The notes under the pieces are model-generated. The model saw nothing but the letters and a program-made list of their open reading frames with translations, was not told where the DNA came from and searched no databases. The position numbers were made by a program, and so were the translations under genes. Source: Brevibacterium sp. CCUG 69071 (GTDB lineage Bacteria > Actinomycetota > Actinomycetes > Actinomycetales > Brevibacteriaceae). From it: 64,000 bases of DNA. The DNA is taken from assembly GCF_021023135.1 (NCBI RefSeq), contig NZ_PGFV01000004.1:1-64000 (forward strand). Direction: 5' to 3'. Below, piece after piece: positions 1,720 to 34,943 of the stretch; within the stretch, counting starts at the first letter, position 1, and the number at the start of each line of letters is the position of its first letter.

Positions 1720-2720
1720 TCCGTGGACCTGTCTGGCTCTTCGAGGAATGTGACCTTGAGCGACAATCCGGAGAGCCCGTCCATGGATACCCCGTTGTTT
1801 GTGGAGGCGGAGTTCCTCTTCGCTCGGAAGGCGAATGTGCAGAGCTTGCCTCGCATGTTCGACCCGACAGCCCGGTCGTCAGACATGAGCCAGTTCGTGC
1901 GGTAAGTGTTGGCTTTCGCACCTGCGCTATCGAACTGGAACTCTTGGGTCTTGTAGAGGAACGGTTCCCCGTTCGCTCCCCCGGCGGTGGAGGGCCCGTA
2001 AGAGACCCAGAACGTGCCGTAGCAGTTCGAATTCGCCTCATACCGCACTCCGTACCAGGAGGGTTCGACGATCATGCGCACAGCCCACTCGGGCACCTCG
2101 ATCTCCTGACGTGCACCGGTTGCCGCTCCATCGCCGGGGAACCATTCGCCCGTGGTAGATGAGAGCTTCATGCCCGTGTCCGTGGTGACTGACGGGCGAG
2201 ACCGATTGACGGGCTTCACGCGGGGGTTGGCCATTTGCCGGATGTCGGTGAGCATGGCGTTGGTGATCGTCGCCGTGTTCGCCGGCTGATTGAGGCGGTA
2301 GAGCTCCACGAACGGGTATGTCGTCGGCAGCGCGGACACCCACTGGTAGGAGTTGCGGGGATCCGTCTTCGGGTTCGCCTTCGTGTCGCCCTCATACTGT
2401 TCGTCCTGGACTCGAGCAATCAGGTACCGGACTGCAGCGCCGGACGATCCCGTCGCAGGGACCGGGAAGTCAGTCGAGGAGATCTCACGCATCGCATACG
2501 ACTGCCCGCCGCCCGCGGTCGGGTAGTAGTTCGGGCTCACGCCGGCGCCGGAGTAGATGCGCACGGCGGGGCCCGGGGTCGGCAGTGCAGTGACTCGCAT
2601 GTCTCTCGGTGCCATGACTCCGCGGCCGCCGCTCGTCGCCGCGTACAGGGCGAGGCGAGCGCCTTCGACTTCGTTGTAGGCGCCGCCGCCGACGGCCCAG
2701 GGGATGTTCTGCAGAGGCAT
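1716..2720 (-). CDS. Phage minor tail / tail tip protein
   Basis: A 334-residue protein. The N-terminus is typical of a class of siphophage tail proteins (MPLQNIPWAVGGGAYNEVE, then GGRGVMAPRDMRVTA and AVRIYSGAGVSPNYY). The middle has RYLIARVQDEQYEG and PFVELYRLNQPANTATITNAMLTDIRQMANPR, like the trailing part of tail spike-base proteins. The C-terminal half (from about residue 195) is beta-rich and could be a carbohydrate-binding or jelly-roll domain; this is inference. It overlaps the Gp37-like gene by 4 bases, and the Dit-like gene lies 11 bases upstream. Confidence 0.68.
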   Translation of the reverse strand: MPLQNIPWAVGGGAYNEVEGARLALYAATSGGRGVMAPRDMRVTALPTPGPAVRIYSGAGVSPNYYPTAGGGQSYAMREISSTDFPVPATGSSGAAVRYLIARVQDEQYEGDTKANPKTDPRNSYQWVSALPTTYPFVELYRLNQPANTATITNAMLTDIRQMANPRVKPVNRSRPSVTTDTGMKLSSTTGEWFPGDGAATGARQEIEVPEWAVRMIVEPSWYGVRYEANSNCYGTFWVSYGPSTAGGANGEPFLYKTQEFQFDSAGAKANTYRTNWLMSDDRAVGSNMRGKLCTFAFRAKRNSASTNNGVSMDGLSGLSLKVTFLEEPDRSTE

Positions 2721-3612: not shown

Positions 3613-6600
3613 TCAGCTCCGCATCAGGTTCGAGGACCGAGAGACACGACGCTTCGAGTCCTCGTATCCGTTGGCGACAGTGGCGATGACGTACCCGGCC
3701 ATGTCCTGGTCACCGACGCGCACGGCCAGTTGCACACCCTCGAGCGCCGAGGCGAGGTCGCCGGCGGTCATCTGGTTCGCGGCCGCAGCGGCGATCGCAT
3801 TGACGGAGGCCTGGTCGAGGGAGAGCGTCGAAGACGTGGAGCGCATGAGCTGGTTCTCGATCGACACGGACTGCTGATGCGGGATGACCTGCTCACCGCC
3901 ACCGAAGTCGACGTACTCCCACCCGGCCTCGCCGACCTTGTGCACGCCCTTGCGCGCCGAGCGGACGCCGTTGGCGTACCCGCCCGAGCGGTCATATGCT
4001 GCGGCGAGGGACTTGTACCGGCCGAGGGCATACGACATCGAGGCGACGATGTTCGACATCGGGTCCCAGATGTTCGAGTTGTACGGTGCCCGGGCGTAGG
4101 CACGGAACGTGGGATCGATGACCTGCATGAGGCCCTTCGACGGGGTGCCGCGGCGAGCATTCGAGTCCCAGTTGTTGATCGCCTTCGGGTTGCCACCGGA
4201 CTCCTGGTTCATGCGGCGCAGGGTGCGGTTGACGTTCGAGAGCGGCTGGTTCATGAAGTTCAAAGCGGAGATGACTGTCGGCCGCCACCTCTCGACACCA
4301 GCGCCACCGGAGTCGCCCTCACCCTCGGCGAAGGTCTTCGCGTACTCCTTTGCCTGCTTGACGGAGCCGTCGATGACCTTCTCCATCACACCGACACCGA
4401 TCTGCCCGGTCAGGGAATCGCCGTCGAGCTTCTCGGAGTACTTCGCCAGCAGCTCCTTGCCCTTCCGGCGTGCCGCCTTCTCGAGCTCCTTGGCGATGTC
4501 GCCGCCATAGCTGATGTCACCGAGGATGCCCTCGTCCATGGCACCGCCGCCGACGGCCTTGCCGCGGTTGTCCGCGTGCAAGTGGTCATGGTGCCCGGCG
4601 GCCTTCCATAGAACAAAGGCCCAAGGAAAGGCCGCCTTGAACGCAGCGACGTTCGCATCGAAGAACTTCGTCTCCGTAGCGTTCTGACCACCGGGCCCGA
4701 AGTTCACATCGATCGCGTCGCCGTTGTAGTGATGCGAGTTCGGTGAGTGGCGGCCGACCGGGCCCCAGTGCGGATGCTCGCCGACGCGGGCGCCGCGCTG
4801 CTCCCACCAGTTGCCCGCAGCGATGATGCCACCACCGGCATAGCCTTCGTCCCGGAACCGGTGCAACGGTTGACCGGCCAGCGCAGCAGCGTTGACCCGG
4901 TGCAGGCGTTCCCGTTCATAGGGGTCCCGCATCGCCTCGGAGACGTACACGCCCTCACCGGACCGCATCGGAGTGAGCTGATCGTCACCAGCCGAGTACG
5001 GGGTGAAGCCGGACAGGATACCGCCGCCGGCGAATCCCCCTTTGGGCTTCTTCACTCCGGTGAGCTTGACGCCGACGGAACCGAAGGACTTGTTGATCTC
5101 CTTCGCGAAGGAGTTCAGCACATCAGCTGTGTCGTCGAGGGATCCACCGACGTCGCCGGGGATCTTGCGCATCGTCTTATCGATGCCCTTGCGCATCCCT
5201 GAGAAGTTGGACGTGCCGCCGTCCGCAATCGAGGAGAACCCAGTGTCCGTGGTCTTGCCCAGGGTGGACAGGCGCGATGACGCGTCCTTGTCCATGTTGC
5301 CCATGGTCGTGTCGACGCCCTTGCGCATGTCCCCGGCCGTGGTCGTGGTGGTCTTCTTGATCGACGACCACTCATCGGACTGGGTCTTGCCCATCGCCTT
5401 GAGGTTCTTCGACTGATCCGACGCCATGGTCTCGAGGTTCTTCACCTGGTTCGAGACCATCCCCGACAAGGCCGAAGACTGGGTGCCCGACATCGTCGAC
5501 ATATGCGAGGCCAGATCCGCGCCCATCGCCGTGAGGCCGGTGGCCATCGTGTCCTGCATGCCCGTCATCGCCGCCGCAGTGCCCTCCTGACGGGCCAACA
5601 GAGACGCATCCGTGTCAGCGGTCATCTTGAGGTACGCGGCCTCTGTGAGGGCCTGCATCGACGTGAGCGCATCCGTCGTCGTGGTGAGCGTGTCATCCCA
5701 CGACACCTCCGCACCCAGCTGCGACCCCGACATATCCGACGCACCTTCCGGTGAGGCGAGCGCCGAACCGTACTCGGACGGTGACTCGGTGGCGCCGAGC
5801 GTGGGTGTGGCGGTGAGGTCGGCGGTGATGGGTCCGAAAGTGGAAACCGAGGGGACGGCGGCGAGGCCGAGGCGCGCGGCCGAGTCCTCGATGGTGGCCA
5901 GCGAATCGAGGAGTGCGTTGTTGAGGCCTGCAGCGGTGTCGAGGCCGCGGGCGTACATGACCGTCGATGGGGACTTGATGCCGAGAGCCCTCTTGAGGGA
6001 CTTCTCCATGCCCTTGGCGATCTTCTCGATCGTCTTCTCGACGGTCTTCTGCTGAGACTCGAGTCCCTTCACTAGCCCGGCGGCGGCGTTGACTCCACCG
6101 GAGTAGAATCCCTCGGTGACGTAGGCGCCGGCCTGGTTCGAGTACTTCGCGATGTCCTTGTAGCTCGCGTTGATGGAGCGCACGTCCGACGATGATCCCT
6201 TGAGGAGTTCGTCGGCCATGGTGATCGACTCGTCGATGGATCCGGCCTGGGCGACTTCCTGCAGGATCGCGCCACCGTAGCCCATCCCGGCGAGCTTCTT
6301 GAGCTTCCCGGCCAGGCCCTTGACCTTCTGAGCTGCGGCGGCCGCGTTCGTGCGCACACCAGAGACACCGGACGTCTGCTGCCAGGTGCCGTTCTTGTCC
6401 TGCGCCCACTGGGAGGACACGTCGAGCTCGTAAGCCTTGCCCTCGATAGACGAGGACACGGAGGACTGGATCTGCTTGAGCTCGTCGAGCTTGTCCTGCG
6501 CCTTCTCCGTCTTCTTCTCGAGCCGGTCCAGGGTGCCGTAGAGCGAACGCAGCGACTTCTCGTACTGGCGGGCCTCGATACCGGCACGACGGCGAGCACC

Positions 6601-9600
6601 CTTGGACAGGTCTGAGTTGTCAGCGAGGCCCTGCAGACGGTCGACCACGGAGTACGAACTCGACAGACCACCCTTGACCTGTTCGATGACATCGCCGCGG
6701 CGGACGTCGGTGTTCAGATCGGTCCGGAGCTCGCCGACCCGTGCGCGGCGTTCCTTCTCCTCTTTGGCCCGTTCGGCTGCGAGCTTCGCTGCCTCCTCGG
6801 CGGCCTTCGCTTCGGCTTTGACCGCCTTGAGGTTCTTCTTCGCCGAGGCGAGCGCATCCTCAGCGACCCGGACCCGTTTCGCGGCGGTGGCCTTGCCGGA
6901 CTTCGACTTCGCGTCGGACTTCGCGCGGCGTGCATCCCTGAGGTCATCGGAGGCGAGGTCGACGCGGCGTTCGGCGGTGGCGATGCCGCCCTTGGCGAAG
7001 GGGATCGCGCCGGGCATGCGGGTGAGTGCCTCGGAGAGGATCTTCCAGGAGCGGCGGGATCCGTCGAGGGGGACGTAGGCTTCGTCGACGTCCATGCGGT
7101 CGCCGACGACGCGCCACGTGTTCGGGGGCACCATCTCCGCGACCGAGCCCATGGGGCGCAGGCCGCCGTCGGCCATGTATTCGAGGATGCCGCCGTGGTA
7201 GTTGGCCTTCTGAACGTTCTTGTTCTTCGGGTCCGACGAGTAGACGGTCTTGTCGCCCTCTTTGCGGACGTGGGTTTCGTTGACGCGCACCCAGACGGTC
7301 TTGTCCTTGACCCCGTCGATCCATTGCTGCAGGTTCTTGAGCTTCGCGACCGACTGGCCGGTGTTGATCTTGACGTCGGTCTCGATCTCGTCCGGAGTCT
7401 TCACCAGCTGGTCGACGTAGGCCTCGGCCTTCTTCTTCGACCCGAAGAACGCGGTCGCCTGCTCGACGAGCTTGTCGCGAAGCTTCTTGTGCTTCTTCGC
7501 AGCGTCGTCGGCGGACATGCCGTTCTCGATGTTCGCCGCGGTGGCTTCGTTGATGCTGCGCGCCGCGGAGTCGAGCATGTCGTTGTTCTTGCGGCCCGCC
7601 TCGGTGGAGTCATCGATCGAGGTCTTCCCCGACTTCACCGCGGCCTCGAGGTCATCGAACGATGCCTCAACCTCACGGTTGGCCTTGCGCGCATCGAGCT
7701 GCGCCGACCCGAACCCGCGGATCTCGTCGGCGAGATTCTTGATCTTGTCCTCGGTGGTCTCCGCTGAGGCGCCGAGCTCGGTGAGGGCGTCAGCGTTGCC
7801 GTTCGCTGTGGCCTCGGCTTCGAGCATCGCCGGGGTGATCTCCCCGTAGGCGATCTTGAGAGCGATCGACTTCTTTTCCGACTCCGACATGGAGTTCGTG
7901 AACAGGCCAGCCGCCTCGGCGAGCGCGTAGGTCTGCTTCTGGTACTCGGGGAACTGGTTGAACGTCTCCTCGAGCGGCACACCGAGGGCGCGGCCCTCGT
8001 ACATGATCGCCTTGAACCCGTCCTGCGCGGACTGCAGTGACCCACCAGTGGCGAGGTCGTTGACAGCCTTGTCCATGTCCTGGAAGGCGGCCGTGGCCTT
8101 CTCCGCGCCGGACTCGACGCCGGGGATCCAGCCGAGGCCAGTGTTGATTTTGTCCGAGAATGTGGAGTTGTAGAGGCGGTCGAAGGCTCCTGCGAGGTTG
8201 TCGACCTCGGTGAAGGTGCCCTTCGTCTTCTCACCGACGACGGAGACGTCCTGCAATTCACGATTGATGCCTTTGAGGATCTGCTCGGCGTTGCCTCCAC
8301 CGTTGACGATCGCCTCCATGAAGGCTGTCGGGGTGGTGTCGTGCTCGAGCTTCTGCATCTCCTGCGACACAGCAGCTGCGGCGGTGCCGACGACGAGGAG
8401 GCCCGCGGCGGTGCCGGCGGCGATCTGCCCGACCTTGCCGAGACCACCCATGAGGTCGGGGAAGTCCTTCTTGAGCTGCTTGAAGCCGTCGATGACGTCG
8501 AAGACCTTCGGGGCGAGCACCAGGAACCCACCAGCGGCGAGCGCCGTGCCACCAGCGAGGACGCCGAGCGCGCCTGCTGATTCCTTGACCGGTTCGGGGA
8601 GGTTGCCGATCCAGTTCGCGAGGCCCTCGACACCCTCGGCGGCGTCGGCCACGGCGGGGAGGAACACCTGCCCGAACCCGATAGATGCGTCCTTGATCGC
8701 GTTGCCAGCGATGCGCACCTTCGACTCGGCAGTGTCGTAGCGTTTGTTCGCCTCTTCGATGAGAGCGATACCGCGCACGTACTCCTCGTTGCCGGTGGCG
8801 AGCGCGTTCTTGAGGACGTCGGAGGCGGATGAGAGGCGGAGGAGGGCATCGGATTCGCGGATGCCGGTGATGCCGAGGGCGGTGAGGGTGCCGTTGACGT
8901 TCTCGCCGGAGGCCTGGGCTTGGCCGAGGCCCTTGACGAAGGTGGTGAGTGCGCCGGCGGCGTCGGTTTCCCAGGCCTTGGAGAATTCGCCGGCGGACAT
9001 GCCGGCGGTCTGGGCGAAGAGTTCGAGCTTGTCGCCCTGGCCGGATACCTCATTGCCCATCTTCTTGAGGACCATGGAGATCGCGGTGCCGCCGGCTTCT
9101 GCATCGATGCCGACGGAGGAGAGTGCGGTGGCGAGGCCGAGGACGTCGCCCTCGGTGAGATTGGCCTGCTTGCCGGCGCCGGCGATGCGCATCGCCATTT
9201 CCACGATCTCGCGTTCCGTGGTGGCGAAGTTGTTGCCCAGGCCGACGACGGCGGCGCCGAGGCGGCCGACGTCTTTCTGATTGGTGCCCATGATGTTCGA
9301 GAACCGGGCCAGGGAGGTGGCGGCCTCTTCGGCGGAGAGGTTCGTCGATTCGCCCATGTTGATCATGGACTTCGTGAACATCAGGACGTTGCCGGTCTTG
9401 ATGCCCAACTGGCCGGCGGCCTCGGCGACGGCGGCGATCTCGCCGTGAGTAGCGGGGAGTTCCTTCGAGGCGAGACGGCGCAGACCGGATTCGAGGTTGG
9501 AGAGCTGCTTGTTCGATCCGTCGACGGTCTTCGTGACACCAGTCCAGTCGGACTGCCACGACATGGCTGCCTTGCCGGCGAGCCCGAAGCCGGCCGCCAC

Positions 9601-9810
9601 TGCCGCGCCGAACCCGGTCGCAGCCGCACCAGCTGCCGACCACGCCTGAGGGTGTGCCCTGGCGGACTTCTCCAACGCGGTCAGCTGCGCACGCGCAGGC
9701 GAAATACCGTTCGCGTCGAGATCGCGCAGTGCGCTCTTCGCCACACGGGTGCCAGTGACGACACCGGTGGAGTCGAGAGAGAGCTTCCACGCTGCAGAAC
9801 GATCAGCCAA
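3613..9810 (-). CDS. Tape measure protein with M15-like and lytic transglycosylase-like domains
   Basis: At 2065 residues this sets tail length and is the largest gene here. It starts at TTG (9810), preceded by GGAGG at good spacing. Residues about 40-420 match the TP901-type tape measure core. Hydrophobic stretches (near 50-70, 405-435 and 455-475) could cross the membrane. Long Lys/Ala coiled coil lies near 930-1100. Near residues 1665-1750 there is a metallopeptidase-like pattern ([14 protein letters not shown], then GHHDHLHAD). Near 1837-1950 there is an SLT-like domain ([32 protein letters not shown]) with the expected Glu. Such domains locally open peptidoglycan during DNA entry. Confidence 0.95.
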
Positions 9811-15544: not shown

Positions 15545-16483
15545 TCAGACGAAGTAGCCGTACTCGGTGAGCAGGCGCGTGAATCGTTCCTTGTCGCCAT
15601 TGGCGCGGCGCATAATCTCGCCGACTGAAAGTCGACGTTTCCCGGCCTTGCCGGCTTCTGAGGTGACTCGGTAGTAGCCGTTGCGTGTTGAGCCTTCGCT
15701 GGTGAACCTGCCCGATGCAGTCATGCCACGGCGGGCATTGATGACCTGGTTCATGTCGGCACCGTTACGTATCGCCTCGGCGCCGGACTTCGTGTAGATC
15801 CGGTCCTGTTCCTTCTCCGACAGTGCATCGAACGCCTGTTGGGGGTCTGTCGCTGTCTGAGCTGCCACTGTCGACGTCGCCGGGAAGTGCAGGCAATTGC
15901 AGTTCGGGTGGCGGAGGAACCCCGCATTCCAGCGGTAGAACTTTCCGGCGAGGACCGCGCACCGAGCGCAGCACCCGGCGGACACCACGCGCGTGTATCC
16001 GACGGACGTCTGAGTAGTGCCGATCCTGACCTGCGCAGACGCTCGCGAGGTGTCCGCGACTGCGTACTGGACGAGCTGTGCGAGCTCGAGCATCCCCCCG
16101 TCCATGGCATCTCGAACTGAGTGGCCACGGCCGATGTGGTCGAGGGCGTGGAAAGCGACACCGGCGAGCGCCGCGTCGAGTGTCGCCCCGGTGGCCGGCA
16201 TGGTGCCGACAATCGCTGAGGGCCGGAGTCTGGCATCGAGTCCGTCGATGTTCTGGTCGTTGAACGCGAAGTCGATGTAGTCGTTGCTGTTCTCGATCGT
16301 CTTCGTCTGGGCCAGCATCACAGCGCCGATGACGCCAGCGGAGAGCGTCTGCCATGAGGCGACGATGGATCCGGGGTTGACGTGCTTCCACGCCTTCCCC
16401 GCACGTTCGAACGCGGCCGCCGTCATCTTCTCGGTGTCCGCCTTGTGGCGGGCCGCTGCCTGGACGACGTCGGCGGTGCTCAT
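15545..16483 (-). CDS. MuF/VG15-like capsid minor protein
   Basis: A 312-residue protein directly after the portal gene, overlapping it by 4 bases. The Cys-rich motif GCCARCAVLAGKFYRWNAGF, followed by LRHPNCNCLHFP (about residues 170-205), is diagnostic of MuF/VG15-type head proteins. These sit at the portal vertex and are thought to act in head morphogenesis or be ejected with the DNA. The N-terminal part is helical. No toxin domain is visible at the C-terminus. Confidence 0.85.
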   Translation of the reverse strand: MSTADVVQAAARHKADTEKMTAAAFERAGKAWKHVNPGSIVASWQTLSAGVIGAVMLAQTKTIENSNDYIDFAFNDQNIDGLDARLRPSAIVGTMPATGATLDAALAGVAFHALDHIGRGHSVRDAMDGGMLELAQLVQYAVADTSRASAQVRIGTTQTSVGYTRVVSAGCCARCAVLAGKFYRWNAGFLRHPNCNCLHFPATSTVAAQTATDPQQAFDALSEKEQDRIYTKSGAEAIRNGADMNQVINARRGMTASGRFTSEGSTRNGYYRVTSEAGKAGKRRLSVGEIMRRANGDKERFTRLLTEYGYFV

Positions 16484-17949
16484 TGCTCGGGTTCGGGTGT
16501 CTCAGGCTGGTTGAATACGCCGGGGTTGCCGGTCGTGGCCATGCGGTTGATGACGCCGAGCGGATCCTGTTCCTGCTCTTCCTTGATCATCTTCATGACC
16601 CGGTCAATTTCGTGCGGGGGCAGACCGTCCTGCTCGAGGAGGTACTTCATCGGGTAGCCGAGCTGCTTCTTCTTGAGCAGAGCATCCGCGCGCTGCGCAT
16701 CAGACCGATACTGCGGGTCCGCCCACATCGGGGTGCCCGCCGCGATCGCATCGGCATCCCTCTCCGAGCGGCCCATGGCCAGCGCGGTGAGGTAGTTGAT
16801 GGTGCGCACGTCCTGGTTGACGAAGAGAATCGACTGCCGGGCGCGGGACACAAGACCGGCCTCCGAGATCGTCAGCGCCTCCGCGGCGGTGTTGACCATC
16901 TTCCCGGACAGGTAGTGCGGCGGAGTGCGGGTCTGAGCTGCGATGTGCTCGACGGCCTGCTGCGTGACTTCGAGGAACGGGCCGATCTGCGCGGCCGACC
17001 ACTCGTGCGGCTTCGCATTTTCGTCGGGAACCCAGAGAACCTTCTCGCCGGTAAGACTGTCGAGGTCCACTGGTCGATATCCGGCAATCTGCCCGTCTTC
17101 GCCCAGGATCGGTACCTCGGGGACGTCGGCGCCGGTGATAATCCGCTGAGGCAGGGACACCATGTCGAGAGCGTTCAGCAGGTACGCCCAAGTGAGGTTG
17201 ATCGCGTCCTGCATGGCCATGACACCCGAGATCTCTGAAATCGGCTGGTCAGGTCGGAGGAACGACCGGTTCTTCATTTCCACGATCGGAACCTGGCCGA
17301 GCGGGTTACGTGCCGGCCACGTGTCGTCAGTGTTGTAGTGGCGGGGTTCCCACCCGGTGCCGATGTCGACGGGGCGACCCATGCGCGCTTCACGGTCCTC
17401 GGAGGTGTTGCGCTGGAACTTCCATACCTCGTCAGCGGTGTACAGGGTCGCGTACTCCCACTTATCGTCAGCCCACATGATCAGCGCCGCGCGACGTTCC
17501 CCTGTGGCCGGGTCCTCGTCAACGATGGTCTGCTCGGGGTGCTCGAAAGTGATGCGAGGCCGGTCGACACGATCCGTCGGCGACACGAGCGCGAATGCAC
17601 GAGCAGCAGCGGAGCGAACGGCGAGCGCCTCCTGGATTCCTGCGTCTGCGCCGGTCGCTTCCCAGGCGCGCGCGAGGCCGGTGTCGGCGCCGAGCTTCTC
17701 GGCAGGGCGGAGGCCGAGGTAGACCATGCGTTCACCGACGGCCTCGACGACGGGGGCGCACCAGTTGTCCGTGAACCCCTTGTAGCGCTGCTGGAAGCTC
17801 TCCTTGAACTTGTCGGAGGCGAAGCGGAGTCGTCCAGTCTCACCGGTGAGGTAGTTCATGCGCTTCGAAATGTCACCGCGACGGAGCTGCATTGCCTGCG
17901 AGAGCTGGTCTGTCACCTGCTCTGCCTGCTCAACCGAGAGTGTGGGCAT
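16480..17949 (-). CDS. Portal protein, SPP1 gp6-like
   Basis: A 489-residue protein with the features of SPP1-type portals: an N-terminal helical part (SQAMQLRRGDISKRMNYLTG), NWCAPVVEAVGERMVYLGL, a beta clip region (ITFEHPEQTIVDEDPATGER), and the stem/crown part (PHYLSGKMVNTAAEALTISE). It forms the dodecameric ring at one capsid vertex, through which DNA is pumped by the terminase. Its start is one base away from the TerL stop region. It overlaps the MuF-like gene by 4 bases. Confidence 0.92.
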   Translation of the reverse strand: MPTLSVEQAEQVTDQLSQAMQLRRGDISKRMNYLTGETGRLRFASDKFKESFQQRYKGFTDNWCAPVVEAVGERMVYLGLRPAEKLGADTGLARAWEATGADAGIQEALAVRSAAARAFALVSPTDRVDRPRITFEHPEQTIVDEDPATGERRAALIMWADDKWEYATLYTADEVWKFQRNTSEDREARMGRPVDIGTGWEPRHYNTDDTWPARNPLGQVPIVEMKNRSFLRPDQPISEISGVMAMQDAINLTWAYLLNALDMVSLPQRIITGADVPEVPILGEDGQIAGYRPVDLDSLTGEKVLWVPDENAKPHEWSAAQIGPFLEVTQQAVEHIAAQTRTPPHYLSGKMVNTAAEALTISEAGLVSRARQSILFVNQDVRTINYLTALAMGRSERDADAIAAGTPMWADPQYRSDAQRADALLKKKQLGYPMKYLLEQDGLPPHEIDRVMKMIKEEQEQDPLGVINRMATTGNPGVFNQPETPEPEQ

Positions 17950-17950
17950 G

Positions 17951-19636
17951 TCACCTCCATTTCGTCGATGTGCCGGTGTAGATCGTGGACTTCTTCGTGA
18001 TCTTCGCCCCCGACTTCACCGCGTCGAGCGTGGCCTGATGCGCGAGAACCGAGGACATGGTGAGGTCGATCTTCTGATCCTCGGAAGCCTTCTTGATGTA
18101 GTACTTCCCGAACCCGCCGACAGCCGATTCGACGGCGTTCCTGATGTGGATCGACACTGTTTCGTCGCCGTCGTGGGTGAACTCGGACTCCGGGTCGACG
18201 ACGGTGAGCTTGAACGCTTCAAGTGCCTCGAACATCTGCCCGAGCCGGTTCGTGGCGAACTCGACGATCACATCGCCGTACTTCGCTGACCATTCGGCGA
18301 GCTCGGTGCGGTAGCCGAAGGGGTCGAAGTAGGCGCGGACAACCTCGAACTCGGAGAGGATGTCGGCGAGTGCCGCGTCGACCTCGAGGCGGGGAATGCG
18401 GCCGTCCCACTTCCGTGGATCCCAGATCGTGGTGCGGGTGCCGCCGTGGTAGGTCGGGGTGAACTGGTGGAAGTCGAGTGTTTCGGCGCGGAACCCGGTC
18501 CAGTCGTTCGTCTCCGAACCATCGAAGCCGAGGCAGATCTTCGTGCGAGGCTTCACCTCGATGCGAGGTTCGGCTGCGCGGAGATCCCACACGGTCTGTT
18601 TGATCCAATGCGCGGAACCGGCGACGATGCGGTTGCCGTAAAAGCGCTCGGCCTCCGCGGGATGCTCGCGCATGAGGTCCTTGGCGGTCTTCTCGATGTC
18701 GCGGAGGTCCACCCACGGGGAGAACTGGTAGTTGTAGCGGAAGATCTGCATCCGCTCGTCCGGCTTCTCGAAGTCGAGGTGCTTCGGCGGCGGGAAGTGG
18801 TGGACATAGACGTCGTCGAGGCCCGACTCCATCGTGTCCTTCTGCAGCCACGAGGACTCTGCCGGGTCCGGTGGGTTCGACGACTCCACCATGCGGCCTC
18901 CCATGCCGCCGAGACCGCGGAGGAGGGTGCGGTTGAACTTCCGCATCTTGTTCGAGTCCGTGTACAGGCCGGTCTCGTCGGGGAACGCCGCGGAGATGCG
19001 GGCGCCGAGCTTCGAGTCAGCTTTCGAGGTGACAATCTCAATGAGAGAGTCGCGGTTGCCGTTCGGGTGGCGGATGAACTCCTCGCCGGTCTTCGGGATG
19101 ACGTTGGCCAGCGGTCCGAAATCGATCATCGGGACGAGAGCGCCCCACGTGTTCTCCACCTGGTCTTCGACGACCGCGGCGAGCTGGATGCGGGGAGTCG
19201 CGCGTGGGCGCCCCATCGGCTCTCCGGCCATGAAGTCGTACTCCCACCCGCACGGACATCCATGCGCGGCACACCGGTACGTCTCGCCTCCGGCGGCGAA
19301 GCCGTCGAACTGGGACGGGCCGACGAACTCGATCAGAGCGTGGCCGGCAATACCGGGCGATTTTCCGATCTTCTGCGCCGCCACCCACGCTGAGCGCCGG
19401 TAGTGGAACGCCGAGGCGAGCTCTCCGCGCTGCGCGTCGGGGCGGACGATGTAGTGGTTGGCCAGGAAGATCTTGTGATCGATCGTCGGCTCGAACATCT
19501 CGCCGGACATGTCGCCGTCTGGGACCACTGCGTGATTGGCGAGCCAGTCCGCGAGGAAGTACCCAATGGTGGTCGTGGGGTGCGGGATCGAGTAGTTCGG
19601 GCGCGGGACCTTCCGGTCAGCCTGCACCGTCGTCAC
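17951..19636 (-). CDS. Terminase large subunit
   Basis: The DNA-packaging motor. I start it at the GTG at 19636 (VTTVQADRKVPRPNYSIPHP, about 561 residues), which overlaps TerS by 20 bases. The frame extends to 19747, but that part is an Arg/Ser-rich shadow of TerS. A variant Walker A lies near residues 80-93 (RRSAWVAAQKIGKS). Walker B lies near 214-222 (ISAAFPDETG). Nuclease-type Asp residues appear in CLGFDGSETND and VRAYFDPFGY. A Cys cluster (CAAHGCPC, near 122-129) interrupts the ATPase part. No clear ribosome binding site precedes the GTG, so coupling to TerS is likely. Confidence 0.92.
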   Translation of the reverse strand: MTTVQADRKVPRPNYSIPHPTTTIGYFLADWLANHAVVPDGDMSGEMFEPTIDHKIFLANHYIVRPDAQRGELASAFHYRRSAWVAAQKIGKSPGIAGHALIEFVGPSQFDGFAAGGETYRCAAHGCPCGWEYDFMAGEPMGRPRATPRIQLAAVVEDQVENTWGALVPMIDFGPLANVIPKTGEEFIRHPNGNRDSLIEIVTSKADSKLGARISAAFPDETGLYTDSNKMRKFNRTLLRGLGGMGGRMVESSNPPDPAESSWLQKDTMESGLDDVYVHHFPPPKHLDFEKPDERMQIFRYNYQFSPWVDLRDIEKTAKDLMREHPAEAERFYGNRIVAGSAHWIKQTVWDLRAAEPRIEVKPRTKICLGFDGSETNDWTGFRAETLDFHQFTPTYHGGTRTTIWDPRKWDGRIPRLEVDAALADILSEFEVVRAYFDPFGYRTELAEWSAKYGDVIVEFATNRLGQMFEALEAFKLTVVDPESEFTHDGDETVSIHIRNAVESAVGGFGKYYIKKASEDQKIDLTMSSVLAHQATLDAVKSGAKITKKSTIYTGTSTKWR

Positions 19637-20117
19637 CCGCAGACGGGAAGAGATCCGCGATCTGCTGAGCGGTCGACTTGCGCGGCTTCGACTCCACCGC
19701 CGGCGCCGCGGCCTCCGACTTCTTCTGCAGCTCCTCCGTGGACGCATACCGCCACTTGTGCCGCGCCATTCCGGAGAGGTTCACGCCGAGGTCCTCGGCC
19801 ATGATCCGCATCTGCGTCAGCCGAGAGGCTGGAACGTCGAATTTCTCCGTTTCGATCGACACGAGCAGTCGAACGTAGATCGCGAGCGTCACGTGCTGGT
19901 GCTGGGACTCCCAGACGATGGACTGGCCCATCTTCCAGAACTTCTGCCAGAGCTCACGCTCGCGGTCAGTGAGACCAGGCTTGAGTGGCCAGTTCGGTGT
20001 CCGCCGGCGGTCGACATGCTCGGGGAGCTTGATCCATCCGTCCTCGTTGCGCCGCTGACGGTACGAGTTCAGGTCTGCTGGCGGGCCACTACGGGCGCGC
20101 GCGCCTCCTGATGTCAT
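19617..20117 (-). CDS. Terminase small subunit
   Basis: A 166-residue protein immediately upstream of TerL. It has a basic N-terminus, a central helical part (LTDRERELWQKFWKMGQSIV, HQHVTLAIYVRLLVSIETEK) and RLTQMRIMAEDLGVNLSGMA near residues 100-120. That last segment is characteristic of small terminases of actinophages. It recognises the packaging site and recruits the large subunit. The tail (residues 130-166) is disordered. Confidence 0.85.
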   Translation of the reverse strand: MTSGGARARSGPPADLNSYRQRRNEDGWIKLPEHVDRRRTPNWPLKPGLTDRERELWQKFWKMGQSIVWESQHQHVTLAIYVRLLVSIETEKFDVPASRLTQMRIMAEDLGVNLSGMARHKWRYASTEELQKKSEAAAPAVESKPRKSTAQQIADLFPSAGDDGAG

Positions 20118-24786: not shown

Positions 24787-25986
24787 TCAATCGCCTTTGA
24801 CGTTCACGACTTGGTGGAAGGTGTGGCGGATTTTCACCAGGTCGGAAGCATCGTCCATGACCTGGTCGATGTCCTTGTACGCCTGGGGAATCTCGTCGAT
24901 GAACGCATCCGTGTCCCGGTATTCGATGCCCTTCATCGCCTCACGCAACTGCTCATGAGTGAAGGTCTTCCGCGCCTTCGAGCGCGAGAAGTTCCGGCCA
25001 GCACCATGCGGGGACGAGTTGAAGCTCATCTTGTTCCCCAGGCCCTCCACAACGTAGGACGCGGTGCCCATGGAACCGGGGATGAGACCGAGCTGCCCCT
25101 CACGGGCAGAGATCGCACCCTTCCGGGAGATCCAAAGGTTGCGGCCGAAGTGGTGCTCCTTCTGCGTGAAGTTGTGGTGGCAGTTGATGCGCTGCGTCTC
25201 CTCCACCTCAGCACCCATGTGAGTAGCGAGGGCTTCGAGGACGCGGTCCATCATCTCTTCACGGTTCAGCAAAGCGAAGTGCTGCGCCCAGCCCAGTTCG
25301 GCAATGTAGTGGTCGAACTCTGGTGTGCCCTCGACGAGGTACGCGAGGTCCTTGTCGGGCAGGTCGATCCAGTACTTCTTCGCGACGTCCTGGGCGACCT
25401 TGATGTGGTGCTGGGCGATCTTGTTGCCGATGCCTCGGGATCCGGAGTGGAGGAACGCCCACACCCGGGACTCCTCGTCGAGAGTGATCTCGATGAAGTG
25501 GTTGCCGGAACCGAGAGTGCCGAGCTGTTTATCCCAGTTGGTGGCGTAGTCGTTGAGGTCCCGGTGGTGCTTCCGGCATTCCGCGTCCCATAGGTCGAGG
25601 AGTTCGACGCGTCGGGCATGCGCGGTATCGGTCATGACGGTGTTGTAGTTGCCGGCGGAGAGTGGCACGCGGGACTCGATGATCTCCCGCAGCTTCCGGA
25701 CGGCGGGGACACCGCCGACGTCGTAGAAGTCGTGGCCGGTCCACTGGGTGCGGACCGCGATCATGCCACACCCGATGTCGACACCCACCGCGGCGGGCAT
25801 GATCGCCCCATCAGTGGGGATCACCGAACCGACCGTGGCACCCTTGCCGAGGTGCGCGTCAGGCATGAGCGCGAGATGCGGATGCACGAACGGCATCACC
25901 GAGGTGGCGAGCGCCTGGTTCTTTGTGTCGTCCTCGAGGATGGATGCCCAGTTGTAGAGCTTGGGGGCGAGTTGGTTGATAGTCAT
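24787..25986 (-). CDS. rtcB: RNA-splicing ligase RtcB
   Basis: A 399-residue GTP- and Mn-dependent ligase that joins 2',3'-cyclic phosphate or 3'-phosphate ends to 5'-OH RNA ends. The family motifs are all present: LMPDAHLGKGATVGSVIP, GVDIGCGM (metal Asp70 and Cys73), LGTLGSGNHFIEI, LHSGSRGIG, INCHHNF, PGSMGTASYVVEG and SSPHGAGRNFSR. In the last, His327 aligns with the histidine that carries GMP. It lies inside the early operon, flanked by small phage genes. No RtcA or archease gene is near. In a phage it would most plausibly repair tRNAs cut by host anticodon nucleases; that is inference. Confidence 0.95.
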   Translation of the reverse strand: MTINQLAPKLYNWASILEDDTKNQALATSVMPFVHPHLALMPDAHLGKGATVGSVIPTDGAIMPAAVGVDIGCGMIAVRTQWTGHDFYDVGGVPAVRKLREIIESRVPLSAGNYNTVMTDTAHARRVELLDLWDAECRKHHRDLNDYATNWDKQLGTLGSGNHFIEITLDEESRVWAFLHSGSRGIGNKIAQHHIKVAQDVAKKYWIDLPDKDLAYLVEGTPEFDHYIAELGWAQHFALLNREEMMDRVLEALATHMGAEVEETQRINCHHNFTQKEHHFGRNLWISRKGAISAREGQLGLIPGSMGTASYVVEGLGNKMSFNSSPHGAGRNFSRSKARKTFTHEQLREAMKGIEYRDTDAFIDEIPQAYKDIDQVMDDASDLVKIRHTFHQVVNVKGD

Positions 25987-28047: not shown

Positions 28048-28195
28048 TGGTCTCCTCCTTCGGAGAATGATCACAGTTCGTACAGCAGCCTCGGCCGCGG
28101 TCTCGGGTGAGGCCCTTGCAGGCGACGAGAGTGCCCGCGCAATTGCGGCAGCGTGCCCACTTGTCGCGGGTGGACTCGACCTTCGGTATCGTCAT
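28034..28195 (-). CDS. Zinc-ribbon phage protein
   Basis: A 53-residue protein from the ATG at 28195 (MTIPKVESTRDKWARCRNCA). It carries CRNCAGTLVACKG and GCCTNCDHSPKEE, a zinc ribbon of the CxxC-CxxC type. The start overlaps the stop of the methyltransferase by 4 bases. Paired with the neighbouring zinc-finger gene, it could be a small transcription factor or methyltransferase partner, which is speculation. Confidence 0.67.
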   Translation of the reverse strand: MTIPKVESTRDKWARCRNCAGTLVACKGLTRDRGRGCCTNCDHSPKEETNGAE

Positions 28196-29766
28196 GACGC
28201 CTCCTCGAGCAGTGAGGCCACGGCCACGCGGATCAGATCCCGTGCTGCTGGCGGGGTGACGGCGTTGCCAGCCATGCGCACCTTCTCCCGCTTGTTCCCG
28301 AGGAGCAGATACTCGTCCGGGAATGCCATGCCGAGCATGATCTCGTGCGGGGACAGCATCCGGAACAGGCAATCGTCGACGTTGATCGGACCGACGCTCA
28401 CCGGTTCGGCTGTCGCGAGTCCGTGGTGGTTGCCCGCGGCGGCGAACGTGTCGAGCGGATCCGTCAGCGGCTTCGGCCGGTTGTTGTTCCGGAGCGGGAT
28501 AACCACGGCTTTCGACTCCGACGTGTGCATCGTGCGGAACACCTCGGTGTCCGGCCAAATGCGGTAGTAGTCACCTCCCCGGCGGGGATTAGTGCTGTCG
28601 TAGGTGTTGCCTGCCGCCTCGAGATGGAGGGCGGGCAGAAGGAGACCGTGAGCTTCACGGGTGGTGAGCGTGCGTAGCGGGTCCGTGGCCGGATGAGGCT
28701 CGGTATGCCACGTTCCCCCAGCAGGGACGAGGAGCGCAGTCTCGTTGCGGGTCGTCTGGGTGCGCATCGCCTCGGCGATAGATCGTGCGTCCTTCCCGTC
28801 ACGTCCCTCCACCGGGACGAGCAGCGACGCGTGCAGGCCGCCAGCCACGAACGTGGGCGAGGGTTCCGAGAGCCGCGTTGATCGGGACTCGTCGGCACCG
28901 GAGACGTTGTTGACGATCATCGGCTCGATGTACTTCCGCAGACCGGCCTCGATGCGCTTCATCGTCTTCACCGCCAGCGGCTTCTTCCGGTCCCCGATGC
29001 GCTCTGTAGGCAATGACCAGTCGATCACCGACGACGCCGGCAACCAGCCCGGCTCAACCACCGCGTTTCGGCACAACACTGAGGGGCACCGCCACACGTA
29101 CTGTGTCCGGTAGCGGCCCCACCTCGGCTCCTTCTTGAACACCTGCACCGCGGTGACCATCTCGTCGCAGTGCGAGCAATACGCCTGCGGGCGGAGGCGG
29201 TCGAAGTCCGGGCGTTTGTTGCCCTTTCGCCAGAAGATCACGTACATGCGGTCTCGTGACTGCGGAGCCGGGAGGCCGAACGCCTGCGCATGCATCGAGT
29301 TCATGTACACGACGTGATGCTCATAGCCGAGGGAGTCCATGGCCATGATCCAGGCGTCCCACATCACCCACTTGCGCACGTCGATGACGTTCTCCGTGAT
29401 GATCAGCCGGTACTTGTGGTGCTCAGCAAACCTGGGCACGTCCCACATCGTCGCCCGGGAACGCTCGGCAGCCTGGTCCGGTTTGTCGAACAGGGACTCC
29501 GCCTGCAGCTGCCGCTTCACACCCTTCGCCTGCGAGTGGTTCGTGCACTCGGGTGAGGCCCAGAGAATGTCGGAGTGAGGGAAGTATCGAGGGTCGATCT
29601 GAGACACGTCGGCGAGCACGTGGTCAGCATCCTGATGGTTCGTGTTGTGGGTTTCGATCGCGAGATCCCAATGATTTGTCGCAACCTTCACCTCGACGCC
29701 CGGCACCGAGAGGGCACCAGTCGATGACCCTCCCGCACCGCAAAACATGTCTGTGAGCGTCAGCAT
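28192..29766 (-). CDS. DNA cytosine-5 methyltransferase, phage type
   Basis: A 524-residue enzyme predicted to methylate cytosine in DNA using SAM. Motif I is MFCGAGGSSTG near residue 7. The catalytic loop reads WASPECTNHSQAKG, with Cys74, instead of the usual PPCQ. Motif VI is ITENV (Glu125, Asn126). Motif VIII is PQSRDRMYVIFWR. Motif X is VRMAGNAVTPPAARDLI. A zinc ribbon (Cys197, 200, 227, 232) and a long repeat-like segment (about 270-440, with S/D-P-x-T-F/L patterns) form the target recognition part. It probably protects phage DNA from host restriction. No partner restriction enzyme is near. Confidence 0.92.
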   Translation of the reverse strand: MLTLTDMFCGAGGSSTGALSVPGVEVKVATNHWDLAIETHNTNHQDADHVLADVSQIDPRYFPHSDILWASPECTNHSQAKGVKRQLQAESLFDKPDQAAERSRATMWDVPRFAEHHKYRLIITENVIDVRKWVMWDAWIMAMDSLGYEHHVVYMNSMHAQAFGLPAPQSRDRMYVIFWRKGNKRPDFDRLRPQAYCSHCDEMVTAVQVFKKEPRWGRYRTQYVWRCPSVLCRNAVVEPGWLPASSVIDWSLPTERIGDRKKPLAVKTMKRIEAGLRKYIEPMIVNNVSGADESRSTRLSEPSPTFVAGGLHASLLVPVEGRDGKDARSIAEAMRTQTTRNETALLVPAGGTWHTEPHPATDPLRTLTTREAHGLLLPALHLEAAGNTYDSTNPRRGGDYYRIWPDTEVFRTMHTSESKAVVIPLRNNNRPKPLTDPLDTFAAAGNHHGLATAEPVSVGPINVDDCLFRMLSPHEIMLGMAFPDEYLLLGNKREKVRMAGNAVTPPAARDLIRVAVASLLEEAS

Positions 29767-31863: not shown

Positions 31864-32028
31864 TCATGCCGGCCGCCTCATCGCGAAGATCGATCGGCGG
31901 CTGCGCATGATACGCGGGAGCCGAGACCAACGGACTCTCGTGATGGATCCGGATTTGATCTGAGAGACACCGACACGTTCAGCGACGAGAGTGCCGACGG
32001 TGGCTTTGCTGATGTCGAAGCGACTCAT
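31864..32028 (-). CDS. Possible small HTH-like protein downstream of the excisionase-like gene
   Basis: A 54-residue frame, MSRFDISKATVGTLVAERVG, then VSQIKSGSITRVRW and a very Arg-rich end. Its start overlaps the stop of the upstream HTH gene as ATGA. The N-terminus could form a short helix-turn-helix. Too short to be sure. Confidence 0.42.
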   Translation of the reverse strand: MSRFDISKATVGTLVAERVGVSQIKSGSITRVRWSRLPRIMRSRRSIFAMRRPA

Positions 32029-32267
32029 GACGCCACCCGCTTCGATGCGGGGGCGGGCTGTTCACCCGTTGTCGGTGAGGATCCTGCGGCGAGCGCCTCG
32101 ACATCTTCTCTGATGTATCGGCGGTGCCCACCTGGGGTGCGCGAAGACTCGATGCGGCCAGCCTTTTCGTAGTCCCGGAGAGTCTGTGGGTGCACTCCTA
32201 CGATCCGAGCTGCGGCGGCCACCGTGAGGCGGTCGTCGGCCGAAACTTGAGTATGCTTAACTTTCAT
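32025..32267 (-). CDS. MerR/excisionase-like HTH protein (Cro or RDF candidate)
   Basis: An 80-residue protein. Residues 15-60 form a MerR/BldC-type winged helix (TVAAAARIVGVHPQTLRDYE, then KAGRIESSRTPGGHRRY). It is the first gene of the leftward transcript and divergent from the XRE repressor, the position of Cro or an excisionase in temperate phages. No ribosome binding site is visible; the predicted start of transcription is within 2-3 bases of the ATG, so the message may be leaderless. Three CTTAA half-sites cover its promoter and start. Confidence 0.8.
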   Translation of the reverse strand: MKVKHTQVSADDRLTVAAAARIVGVHPQTLRDYEKAGRIESSRTPGGHRRYIREDVEALAAGSSPTTGEQPAPASKRVAS

Positions 32268-32340
32268 GAGGATGACTTAAGCACAGTGGTGAAAGTTAAG
32301 TCAACTCATTTTGGGTGTGTCGTACCTAGATTCTTAACCT
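32256..32340. promoter_or_regulatory. Divergent operator region with CTTAA half-sites
   Basis: CTTAACTTTCA at 32256-32266 and its exact reverse complement TGAAAGTTAAG at 32290-32300 flank a CTTAAG palindrome at 32276-32281. A further CTTAACCT lies at 32333-32340. The first three sites are 20 bp apart, placing them on one face of the helix. They overlap the leftward promoter and the first codons of the HTH gene. Confidence 0.65.
32276..32304 (-). promoter_or_regulatory. Leftward early promoter
   Basis: On the minus strand, a good -35 (TTGACT, 32304-32299) is followed after 17 bp by a weak -10 (CTTAAG, 32281-32276). Transcription would start near 32269, almost at the ATG of the HTH gene (32267). 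The -10 coincides with the operator palindrome, fitting repression by competition. Confidence 0.5.
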
Positions 32341-32374: not shown

Positions 32375-32722
32375 ATGAACACTTACACGCAAGCGGTGAC
32401 TTCTCCCGAGCCTGGTCTGCGCGTCCCCGAATGGTCCCTCGCTGACCGGCTGCGCAAGATTCGCGTCGACAATGGGTGGAGCCAGAAGCAGATCGCGCAA
32501 CACCTGGAAGTCGGAAGTAGCGCCTACTCCCAGTGGGAAGCCGGCAACGCTAAGCCACGTGACATTGTGGCGGTCGCGAATCGGCTTGAGCTCCTCGCTC
32601 GAGTACCGGCGACGTGGACACTGGGCTTGAATGCAGAAAACCGCCACCCGGATGGTCCGAATGGCGGTGTTTCTTCTCGGTGCGCCACGAGGGATTCGAA
32701 CCCCCAACCTTCTGATCCGTAG
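32375..32722 (+). CDS. XRE-family prophage repressor whose 3' end lies in tRNA-Arg
   Basis: A 115-residue protein. One XRE helix-turn-helix (about residues 21-75: SLADRLRKIRVDNGWSQKQI, then AQHLEVGSSAYSQWEAGNAK) and no protease or dimerisation domain. From codon 103 on, the coding sequence is the antisense of tRNA-Arg, giving the tail CATRDSNPQPSDP and the stop TAG, which lies in the anticodon loop sequence. A tRNA terminator hairpin also lies within the gene. It faces the tRNA, divergent from the HTH gene. If attP sits in this gene, the unintegrated phage would encode a different C-terminus. Confidence 0.82.
   Translation: MNTYTQAVTSPEPGLRVPEWSLADRLRKIRVDNGWSQKQIAQHLEVGSSAYSQWEAGNAKPRDIVAVANRLELLARVPATWTLGLNAENRHPDGPNGGVSSRCATRDSNPQPSDP
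32640..32668. terminator. Terminator of tRNA-Arg inside the repressor gene
   Basis: ACCGCCA pairs with TGGCGGT, with an inner CGGA/TCCG stem. On the minus strand the stem is followed by TTTTC, 12 bases after the tRNA 3' end. On the plus strand it is followed by GTTTCTTCT, so it could work both ways. Confidence 0.75.
32681..32722. other. Candidate attachment site (att core) in tRNA-Arg 3' half
   Basis: The 3' half of the tRNA (acceptor, T arm and anticodon loop) is shared with the end of the phage repressor gene. Tyrosine integrases commonly use such sites and restore the tRNA. The true core length needs the left att site, which is outside the window. Confidence 0.6.
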
Positions 32723-32753
32723 TCAGATGCTCTATCCGTTGAGCTAGTGGCGC
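32681..32753 (-). tRNA. tRNA-Arg(ACG)
   Basis: Read on the minus strand, 73 bases fold as a cloverleaf: acceptor GCGCCAC/GTGGCGC with discriminator A, anticodon stem TCTGA/TCAGA around CTACGGA (anticodon ACG), and T loop TTCGAATC. CCA is not encoded. It reads CGN arginine codons after A-to-I editing of the wobble base. Confidence 0.97.
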
Positions 32754-33001: not shown

Positions 33002-33110
33002 TCTTCGCGTTACCGGAAACCGCGATTTTCGCGCGGCGCCGAGTCCTACGGTGGAGATGTACCAACCGCTCGGCGGAACCCCGCACCCCCGATTGACCAG
33101 GAGACCACTC

Positions 33111-34943
33111 ATGACTGTCCTCGACCATGACGTCGTCGCTGACCAGCTGAAGAACGCACCGACCGCCAACGAGTCGGTGCTCGAGTTCGTCAGCCGGATC
33201 GCCACCCTCACCACCCCCGATGACATCGTCTGGGTCGACGGTTCGCAGGAGCAGAAGGCTCTCATCACGGACCAGCTGGTCGCGGCGGGAACCATCGTGC
33301 GCCTCACCGGCACCAAGGACTCATACTACGCCGCCTCCGATCCCGAGGACGTCGCCCGCGTCGAAGACCGCACTTACATCTGCTCGGTAGACGAGAAGGA
33401 TGCCGGCGCGCTGAACAACTGGGTCGCCCCCGCCGAGATGAAGGAGACCCTGAATGGTCTCTTCGACGGTGCAATGCGCGGTCGCACCATGTACGTCATC
33501 CCCTTCGTCATGGGCCACGCCGAGGCGGACCAGCCGATGTTCGGCATCGAGGTCACCGATTCGCCCTACGTCGTGCTCTCCATGCTCGTCATGGCCCGCT
33601 CCGGTAAGTACGCACTCGACGCGATCGAGGCCCAGAACGCCTCCTTCGTCGAGTGCGTCCACTCGGTCGGCGCCCCGCTCGAACCGGGTCAGGACGATGT
33701 CGCCTGGCCCTGCAGCTCCACGAAGTACATCACCCACTTCCCCGAAGAGCGCTCCATCTGGTCCTTCGGCTCCGGCTACGGCGGCAACGCGCTGCTGGGC
33801 AAGAAGTGCTACGCGCTGCGCATCGCCTCGGCGGTCGCCCGCGACGAGGGCTGGCTGGCCGAGCACATGCTCATCCTCAAGCTGACGAGCCCGGAGGGCG
33901 AGGTCAAGTACATCGCCGCCGCGTTCCCCTCGGCCTGCGGCAAGACCAACCTCGCCATGATCGAGCCGACCATCCCCGGCTGGAAGGCCGAGACCCTCGG
34001 TGACGACATCGCCTGGATGCGCTTCGGCGAGGACGGCCAGCTCTACGCTGTCAACCCCGAGTTCGGCCTCTTCGGCGTGGCACCGGGCACCGGCTACACG
34101 ACCAACCCGACCGCGATGCGCGCCATCGAGGCCGGCGGCAACATCTTCACCAACGTCGCGCTGACCGATGACGGCGACGTGTGGTGGGAGGGCAAGACCG
34201 ACGAGAAGCCCGCTCACCTCACCGACTGGAGGGGCAACGACTGGACGCCAGAGTCCGAGACTCCGGCCGCCCACCCGAACTCGCGCTTCTGCACCCCGAT
34301 CGAGAACGTGCCGACGCTGGCCCCCGAGTGGACCAACCCCAACGGTGTGCCGATCTCGGCGATCCTCTTCGGCGGCCGCCGCAAGACGACCATGCCGCTG
34401 GTGACCGAGACCAAGGACTGGAACCACGGCGTGTTCATGGGCTCGGTGCTCTCCTCGGAGACCACCGCCGCCGCGACCGGAGCCGTCGGCGTCGTCCGCC
34501 GCGACCCCATGGCGATGCGTCCCTTCATCGGCTACAACGTCGGAGACTACCTGCAGCACTGGCTCGACATCGGCAACACCGCCGGAGCCCAGCTGCCGAA
34601 GATCTTCTACGTCAACTGGTTCCGCCGCGATGCCGACAACTCGTTCCTGTGGCCCGGATTCTCCGAGAACTCGCGCGTTCTCAAGTGGGTCTTCGAACGC
34701 GTCACCGGATCCGCCGAGGCCGTCGAGTCCCCGCTGGGCCTGACCCCCGTCGAAGGCGGCCTCGACACCGAAGGCCTCGACTTCACCGACGAGCAGCTGC
34801 GCAAGGCGCTGGCCATCAAGCCCGAGGAATGGGAGACCGAACTCGGACTGATCGAGGACTGGTACGCCGAACTCGGCGATTCGGTTCCCACCGAGCTGCG
34901 CGCCGAGGTCGACAACCTCCGCGAGCGTCTCGGTCTCGCCTGA
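33111..34943 (+). CDS. pckG: Phosphoenolpyruvate carboxykinase (GTP)
   Basis: A 610-residue cytosolic enzyme that converts oxaloacetate and GTP to PEP, CO2 and GDP, the first step of gluconeogenesis. ATG at 33111 follows AGGAGA. The kinase loop [14 protein letters not shown] includes the reactive Cys276 of GTP-type enzymes. [15 protein letters not shown] (metal-binding Asp residues), [14 protein letters not shown] and NWFRRD are further family marks. Length matches the usual 600-620. It is transcribed alone and ends before a 15-bp hairpin. Regulation by carbon source through the CRP-like site is likely. Confidence 0.98.

Follow-up and report, generated by a model that had tools for sequence, protein, structure and literature searches.

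The window analysed here, a stretch of 64,000 nucleotides of a Brevibacterium genome (G000:C15:1-64000), carries a prophage body whose rightmost gene, a small repressor of the XRE type, runs into a host tRNA-Arg (Table 1). Codons 103-115 of this gene (32681-32719) and its TAG stop (32720-32722) all lie within the antisense of the tRNA, and both ARAGORN and the ORF coordinates bear out the initial annotation on this overlap of 13 codons plus stop. The 115-aa ORF has the C-terminus ..CATRDSNPQPSDP. It matches HTH_31 in Pfam (1.2e-8) and PHROG 2328, 'transcriptional repressor' (5.1e-21), the latter over aa 15-114 and hence including the tail, while the solved structures gave no match to it at E 0.01. 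As judged from its profile matches, 32375-32722 is a real repressor-type gene and more than an open frame antisense to a tRNA. A chance antisense overlap was rejected because the PHROG 2328 match spans the tail and none of 15 weaker PHROG 2328 loci used as a control (L055-L069) has a tRNA there, against tRNA-antisense ends in 10 of the 15 loci L041-L054 and L070; one of these ten, L070 (tRNA-Thr), ranks under the control loci and is a different kind of element.

The repressor shares its upstream intergenic region, with an operator-like inverted repeat, with a small divergent regulator. The latter had been called cro-like; a divergent regulator is indeed present, but its type is MerR/excisionase-like and not that of a demonstrated Cro. 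The promoter scan gave no sigma-70-type promoter upstream of the repressor. Its sole match, at 32817-32788 on the minus strand (TTGAGC, 18 nt, TATAGT, 9/12), lies upstream of the tRNA-Arg and is aimed at the repressor end. The next long ORF rightward, 33051-34943 (+), we take from its sequence, by eye, to be a PEP carboxykinase.

Table 1. Features of the prophage and its attachment sites; positions refer to the window unless contig C13 is named.
Feature	Position	Strand	Details
Repressor gene, integrated (prophage) form	32375-32722	+	115 aa; XRE/HTH; PHROG 2328
Host tRNA-Arg(ACG), rebuilt at attR	32679-32753	-	ARAGORN
attR core, 42 bp	32678-32719		identical to G000:C13 6321-6362 (reverse strand)
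Terminator-like hairpin, 3' of tRNA-Arg, antisense to repressor	32636-32668	-	MFE -26.3, z -5.9
Operator-like inverted repeat, at and beside start of divergent regulator	32248-32308		arms of 19 nt each, 84% complementary; spacer 23 nt
Divergent small MerR/excisionase-like regulator, cro/xis position	32025-32267	-	80 aa; Pfam MerR 6e-13; phrog_66 1.3e-8
Prophage body within window	1-32677	-	terminase, portal, protease, minor tail genes
Terminase large subunit	17951-19747	-	prophage body
Portal	16480-17949	-	prophage body
Protease	15545-16483	-	prophage body
ORF of tape-measure size	3613-9810		2065 aa; prophage body
Minor tail	595-2720	-	prophage body
Tyrosine integrase	C13 5244-6068	-	274 aa; ends AIDSLAA; PF00589 1.2e-23

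The integrase is absent from this end of the prophage and had been expected at the other. A whole-genome search with the region returned a 98% match over 45 bases on contig C13 of G000, which holds the distal prophage end: an exact repeat of the 42-bp core, then the tyrosine integrase gene. Within G000, 34 bp of the core were found at no place other than the window and C13 copies, and holin and endolysin genes also lie on C13, inward of the core. The prophage would measure about 39 kb and be split in its tail region between C15 and C13, a joining that we infer from gene content and the common core since no exact overlap of the two contigs was found. A scan of genome contigs with the integrase found no relative. 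Two further genes of the body deserve mention, namely an RtcB-type RNA ligase at 24787-25986 (-) (PHROG 1075, 2.1e-144), carried here by a tRNA-integrating prophage, and a 524-aa ORF at 28192-29766 (-) that, by eye, presumably encodes a DNA cytosine methylase.

Joining the phage sides of both cores in silico rebuilt attP. There the repressor frame crosses the core and 15 further codons (KVLIFPSKPNLLEAG) to give a protein of 130 aa ending in LLEAG, as against the integrated form of 115 aa ending in SNPQPSDP. The attP core thus lies inside the 130-codon repressor frame, and integration gives the shorter repressor by way of the host-supplied TAG just beyond the core. Roughly 250 nt separate the core from the start of the integrase frame, an interval that holds one ORF of 62 aa. 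An attP within the repressor gene and a longer phage form with another end, both anticipated by the initial annotation, are therefore what the rebuilt junction contains. A core outside the repressor, an integrase between repressor and core, and a repressor of the same length in both states were all ruled out. So was a prophage of the ordinary kind that integrates at a tRNA and has its lambda-like repressor elsewhere, the core being inside the gene and the two forms different. The proposed likeness to the switch of mycobacteriophage BPs holds for the anatomy, that is the core in the repressor, the change of length and the gene order, but the predicted degradation-tag-like end of the AA type is absent from the rebuilt form. 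The AIDSLAA end of the integrase is a tag-like sequence.

The homologous site in relatives was followed through eleven loci (L072-L082), which with G000 make up the best 12 of 38 matching genomes among 57 searched. In ten of them a host hairpin, AAAGTCCCTCACC..GGTGAGGGACT, comes after the tRNA-Arg and is a homologue of the hairpin that G000 has at attL. The remaining locus belongs to a lysogen, G027, in which the host hairpin sits at attL. Its contigs hold attR (C11), attL (C18) and, in addition, an attP junction (C32). The start of C32 matches C11 exactly over 127 bp that reach to the end of the core, and C18 and C32 have an exact 127 bp in common across the core. These identical figures suggest the word size of the assembler, and since 127 bp exceeds the length of the common core, reads presumably spanned the core in all three arrangements. 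The junction of the phage-form repressor would then have existed in the sequenced G027 culture as excised, circular or tandem DNA; it could stem from tandem copies instead of excision. The swap of C-termini by integration is established at the level of sequence, together with the core copies, the two gene forms, the order of the genes, the unoccupied site of relatives and the attL, attR and attP junctions assembled in this one sibling.

We think it highly probable that the element is a temperate phage with a BPs-type switch of integration-dependent immunity. In the free phage, the repressor gene would continue beyond the 42-bp core of attP, in phage DNA, and encode the 130-aa protein, with the tyrosine integrase gene next. 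Recombination with the 3' half of the tRNA-Arg would set the remaining tRNA behind the core, where its antisense offers an immediate stop, and the lysogen would make the 115-aa repressor without the 15-residue tail. By analogy with BPs, the tail is expected to make the phage form short-lived or inactive, and stable immunity would follow only after integration. That the phage form of this prophage is unstable is a prediction from BPs and from the group statistics given below, its own EAG tail being atypical.

Across the genus, the repressor is present in four of 57 genomes at E 1e-6 (G000, G020, G027 and G043). All four copies end in tRNA antisense, at tRNA-Arg in the first three and tRNA-Lys in G043, and all four are longer in the rebuilt attP. 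When 297 genomes of the order were searched with PHROG 2328, at least 230 matched, a tally of little information because the matches run mostly through the HTH; loci were taken from 30 genomes. The ten loci with tRNA-antisense ends mentioned above were later joined by L049 and L053, and these twelve, minus L070 and plus the repressors of G027, G043, G326b and G114b, form a set of 15. They sit at tRNA-Arg, -Lys or -Asn, and in each (15/15) the stop falls 33-41 nt inside the tRNA, counted from the tRNA 3' end, in or by the anticodon arm. In the order searched, at least 14 genomes with nine different family labels have prophages of this anatomy, and three tRNA types serve as their sites.

For 11 of the 15, attP could be rebuilt, and the phage form is longer than the integrated form in each. 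No second core was found within the 45-60 kb searched for G234, G217 and G326a, and the stretch available for G176 is too short for a core search. Each rebuilt protein was read from the first start codon of its open frame; the N-termini of G068, G326b and G250 are probably too long, and C-termini are unaffected. The integrases of the relatives were picked by position and by eye, the Pfam search covering G000 only, and those of G020 and G043 are also search matches. Several candidates were left out: G275 (no nearby tRNA, and not the repressor), G123 (gene at the contig end), G236 (a match with three stops and no tRNA) and G114a, the second place of an apparent tandem prophage. In G114, two repressor copies 42 kb apart (C1 589852-590121 and 631793-632095; L112 and L114) have an 85-bp stretch in common; the inner one appears to be a phage form ending in TPVAA, which would be a natural attP-like junction in the chromosome. 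Left out as another lineage were the tRNA-Thr elements of G058 and G145, with untagged rebuilt frames of 223 and 178 aa. In these elements of about 20 kb, with a ParA-like ORF by eye, an HTH gene (G058:C1 29570-29923, G145:C1 1811113-1811460) ends in tRNA antisense. A relative on an IMG/VR contig ends in GAVAA and has an integrase-like ORF adjoining. Elsewhere, second partial copies of tRNA-Lys lie about 3-12 kb from the full ones in G046:C25, G026:C37, G035:C1 and G053:C1 and suggest small integrated elements at tRNA-Lys.

The eleven pairs with both C-termini known constitute a natural test set. Their phage forms end in LLEAG (G000), HPSAA (G020), SPLVA (G027), EAGAR (G043), AAAAA (G310), LEEAA (G250), EERAA (G068), DRLAA (G060), RIDRD (G199), EAESA (G326b) and TPVAA (G114b), that is in AA for 6/11 and in A for 8/11. 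The same tail DNA read in other frames gives AA in 1/18 and A in 3/18. Among background ORFs, 322 non-overlapping frames from 18 loci, each 120 aa or longer and some of them spurious, the counts are 13/322 and 52/322. One-sided Fisher p values are 5.8e-6 (AA) and 7.7e-5 (A), for a small sample in which some elements are related, and counting the tRNA-Thr elements of G058 and G145 too makes the proportion of AA ends 6/13. The integrases of the same eleven elements end in AA in six and in A in nine, with SLAA in G020 and RLAA in G027, where the phage-form repressor ends in PLVA. Among ten known phages the repressor ends in AA in four (Kiko, Brujita, Charlie and CaptainKirk2). An AA tag is not general, as G000 ends in EAG, G043 in GAR and G199 in DRD.

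These numbers bear on how the tail would act. A tail that works otherwise than by proteolysis, for example by preventing repressor assembly or by activating the repressor promoter, is a possibility we hold unlikely: tails range from 10 to 50 residues and lack AA in some members, and a stabilised long form of BPs modestly increased Prep activity according to the available text of PMC4557955, but the enrichment in AA indicates a degradation signal for the group overall. Still more doubtful is an incidental overlap, in which attP would fall in the repressor tail merely from adjacency to the integrase, both forms would be equal and no switch would exist. The EAG end in G000, the ends without AA in G199 and G043 and the similar DNA binding of the long and short BPs forms (same partial source, PMC4557955) would agree with it; against it, AA and A ends of phage forms are commoner than in background and other frames, the integrases behave likewise, and 15 elements share the anatomy, at tRNA-Arg, -Lys and -Asn. 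That the gene end is the functionless fossil of a dead relic is very improbable, for although the assembly is interrupted within the tail region and mitomycin C brought no visible lysis in six other B. aurantiacum strains (PMC6579920, in its available part), the terminase, portal, protease, minor tail, lysis and integrase genes, together with both cores, are open and the sibling at the same site has an attP junction in its assembly.

The integration-dependent switch may come with a second arrangement at the same gene end, on the other strand. The terminator-like hairpin that follows the tRNA-Arg, 32636-32668 or more narrowly 32640-32668, includes four consecutive T, of which one belongs to the stem, and its stretch codes for the repressor residues around NRHPDGPNGG. 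A strict consensus terminator scan, which requires five T after the stem, gave no terminator at this hairpin of G000. Folded as the tRNA-side transcript and compared with dinucleotide shuffles, the 50 nt that immediately precede the tRNA end gave a z below -2 in all 15 genes (-2.2 to -8.0, median -5.2), against a median of -0.37 and 1/15 below -2 for one mid-gene control window per gene; in four of the 15 (G027, G043, G234, G326b) a different part of the gene has a fold of equal or greater strength. T-tracts are good in G027 and G234 and poor in G250 and G326a.

In all 15 genes, the hairpin occupies the place where the host tRNA terminator stood before integration. By the proposed mechanism, integration would sever the host terminator from the tRNA and leave it at attL, and the repressor gene would supply a new one. 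Folding and the displaced host terminator together support the segment before the core as a candidate replacement terminator for the host tRNA. Its origin may be sought at another tRNA: the G000 tRNA-Lys locus has 37 of 41 nt in common with the repressor stretch, and tRNA-Lys loci of two relatives (L210, L211) have AAAACCGCCACCCGGATGATCCGAATGGCGG at the place of repressor AAAACCGCCACCCGGATGGTCCGAATGGCGG. Common descent of the repressor hairpin and the host tRNA-Lys terminator is likely, and the transfer may have gone in either direction.

On balance we lean towards a reading in which the repressor end is triple-purpose DNA: a switchable tail, an integration core and an antisense host-tRNA terminator that shares descent with the tRNA-Lys terminator, replaces the lost one and protects the repressor against transcription that converges on it from the tRNA. 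If this is true, the onset of immunity and continued tRNA function would be one recombination event, the repressor C-terminus (PDGPNGG-like) would be shaped by RNA folding, and the phage could move to a new tRNA through a change of core with the terminator kept. The antisense hairpin would give a concrete reason both for a host tRNA that works after integration and for the alike repressor tails. It would make a testable case of a short piece of DNA constrained simultaneously by protein coding, recombination and transcription termination.

Among the ten known phages, a T-loop-like stretch was seen in the repressor of eight and not in Kiko and Zaheer. The hairpin is clear in AGM1, UmaThurman, Barebow and Malithi; Brujita and Charlie have a weaker or irregular one, and BigNuz and CaptainKirk2 have none. 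It is not universal, being weak or absent in some of the ten. The word 'terminator' is absent from the main text of PMC5559632, PMC4557955, PMC10865867, PMC9934374, PMC6109161 and PMC8092301, the founding paper by Broussard et al. (2013) lying outside this search, and the hairpin is possibly new.

Titles and abstract openings of the literature on integration-dependent immunity gave no work on Brevibacterium. In the B. aurantiacum phage literature, 'repressor' is absent from the portions of text that were term-searched; the description of the AGM phages lay outside that search.

Mycobacteriophage BPs integrates at tRNA-Arg. Its gp33 exists as a 136-aa phage form with an ssrA-like tag and a 103-aa prophage form, and its integrase also has a C-terminal signal, as given in the available text of PMC4557955. 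The prophage described here resembles it in the attP at the repressor 3' end, the shortening upon integration, the integrase transcribed after the repressor, an integrase end whose tag-like sequence may correspond to the BPs signal, and the small divergent regulator (PMC4557955, available text). It differs in a tail of 15 residues instead of 33, in the EAG end of the phage form and possibly in the strong antisense hairpin after the tRNA.

Other actinobacterial phages offer similar systems. Gordonia phage UmaThurman and its relatives, for which integration-dependent immunity has been predicted (PMC4929511 and PMC5559632, parts available), have a related repressor, an antisense tRNA-like core, an adjoining integrase and a hairpin (z -5.8); the host genus is another, and the UmaThurman repressor is 40.4% identical over 81% and ends in QIPA. 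About half of 27 tyrosine-integrase Gordonia phages with an identified attP use this immunity, according to the same available part of PMC5559632. The Bifidobacterium prophages Bb423phi2 and 689b-1 were likewise studied through an in silico attP and have 18 extra residues in the virion form, but these are elements of about 18 kb at a tRNA-Met site (PMC6109161, in part). The sources available in part further place integration-dependent immunity in M. abscessus prophages (PMC8092301, PMC9934374) and, by synteny, in Streptomyces cluster BC (PMC12243558), and describe a reminiscent case in Arthrobacter phage Galaxy, with attP outside the repressor (PMC5513430).

The best-ranked repressor matches come from the Brevibacterium aurantiacum phages AGM1-AGM16 and their kin (50% identity over 80%). 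AGM1 resembles the prophage in the antisense tRNA stretch of its repressor tail and in a similar hairpin; the tRNA is tRNA-Lys and not tRNA-Arg, the repressor ends in VDAK, and the annotated integrase is just 65 aa long. This phage (L008, 3486-3953 and 4204-4401) has retained an integration-type repressor beside that short integrase; its ancestor may have been a temperate phage, the ability to integrate having since disappeared. Since similar systems exist in other actinobacterial phages, the kind of switch is already known, and the prophage described here is a new member of it in a genus without a report in the literature searched.
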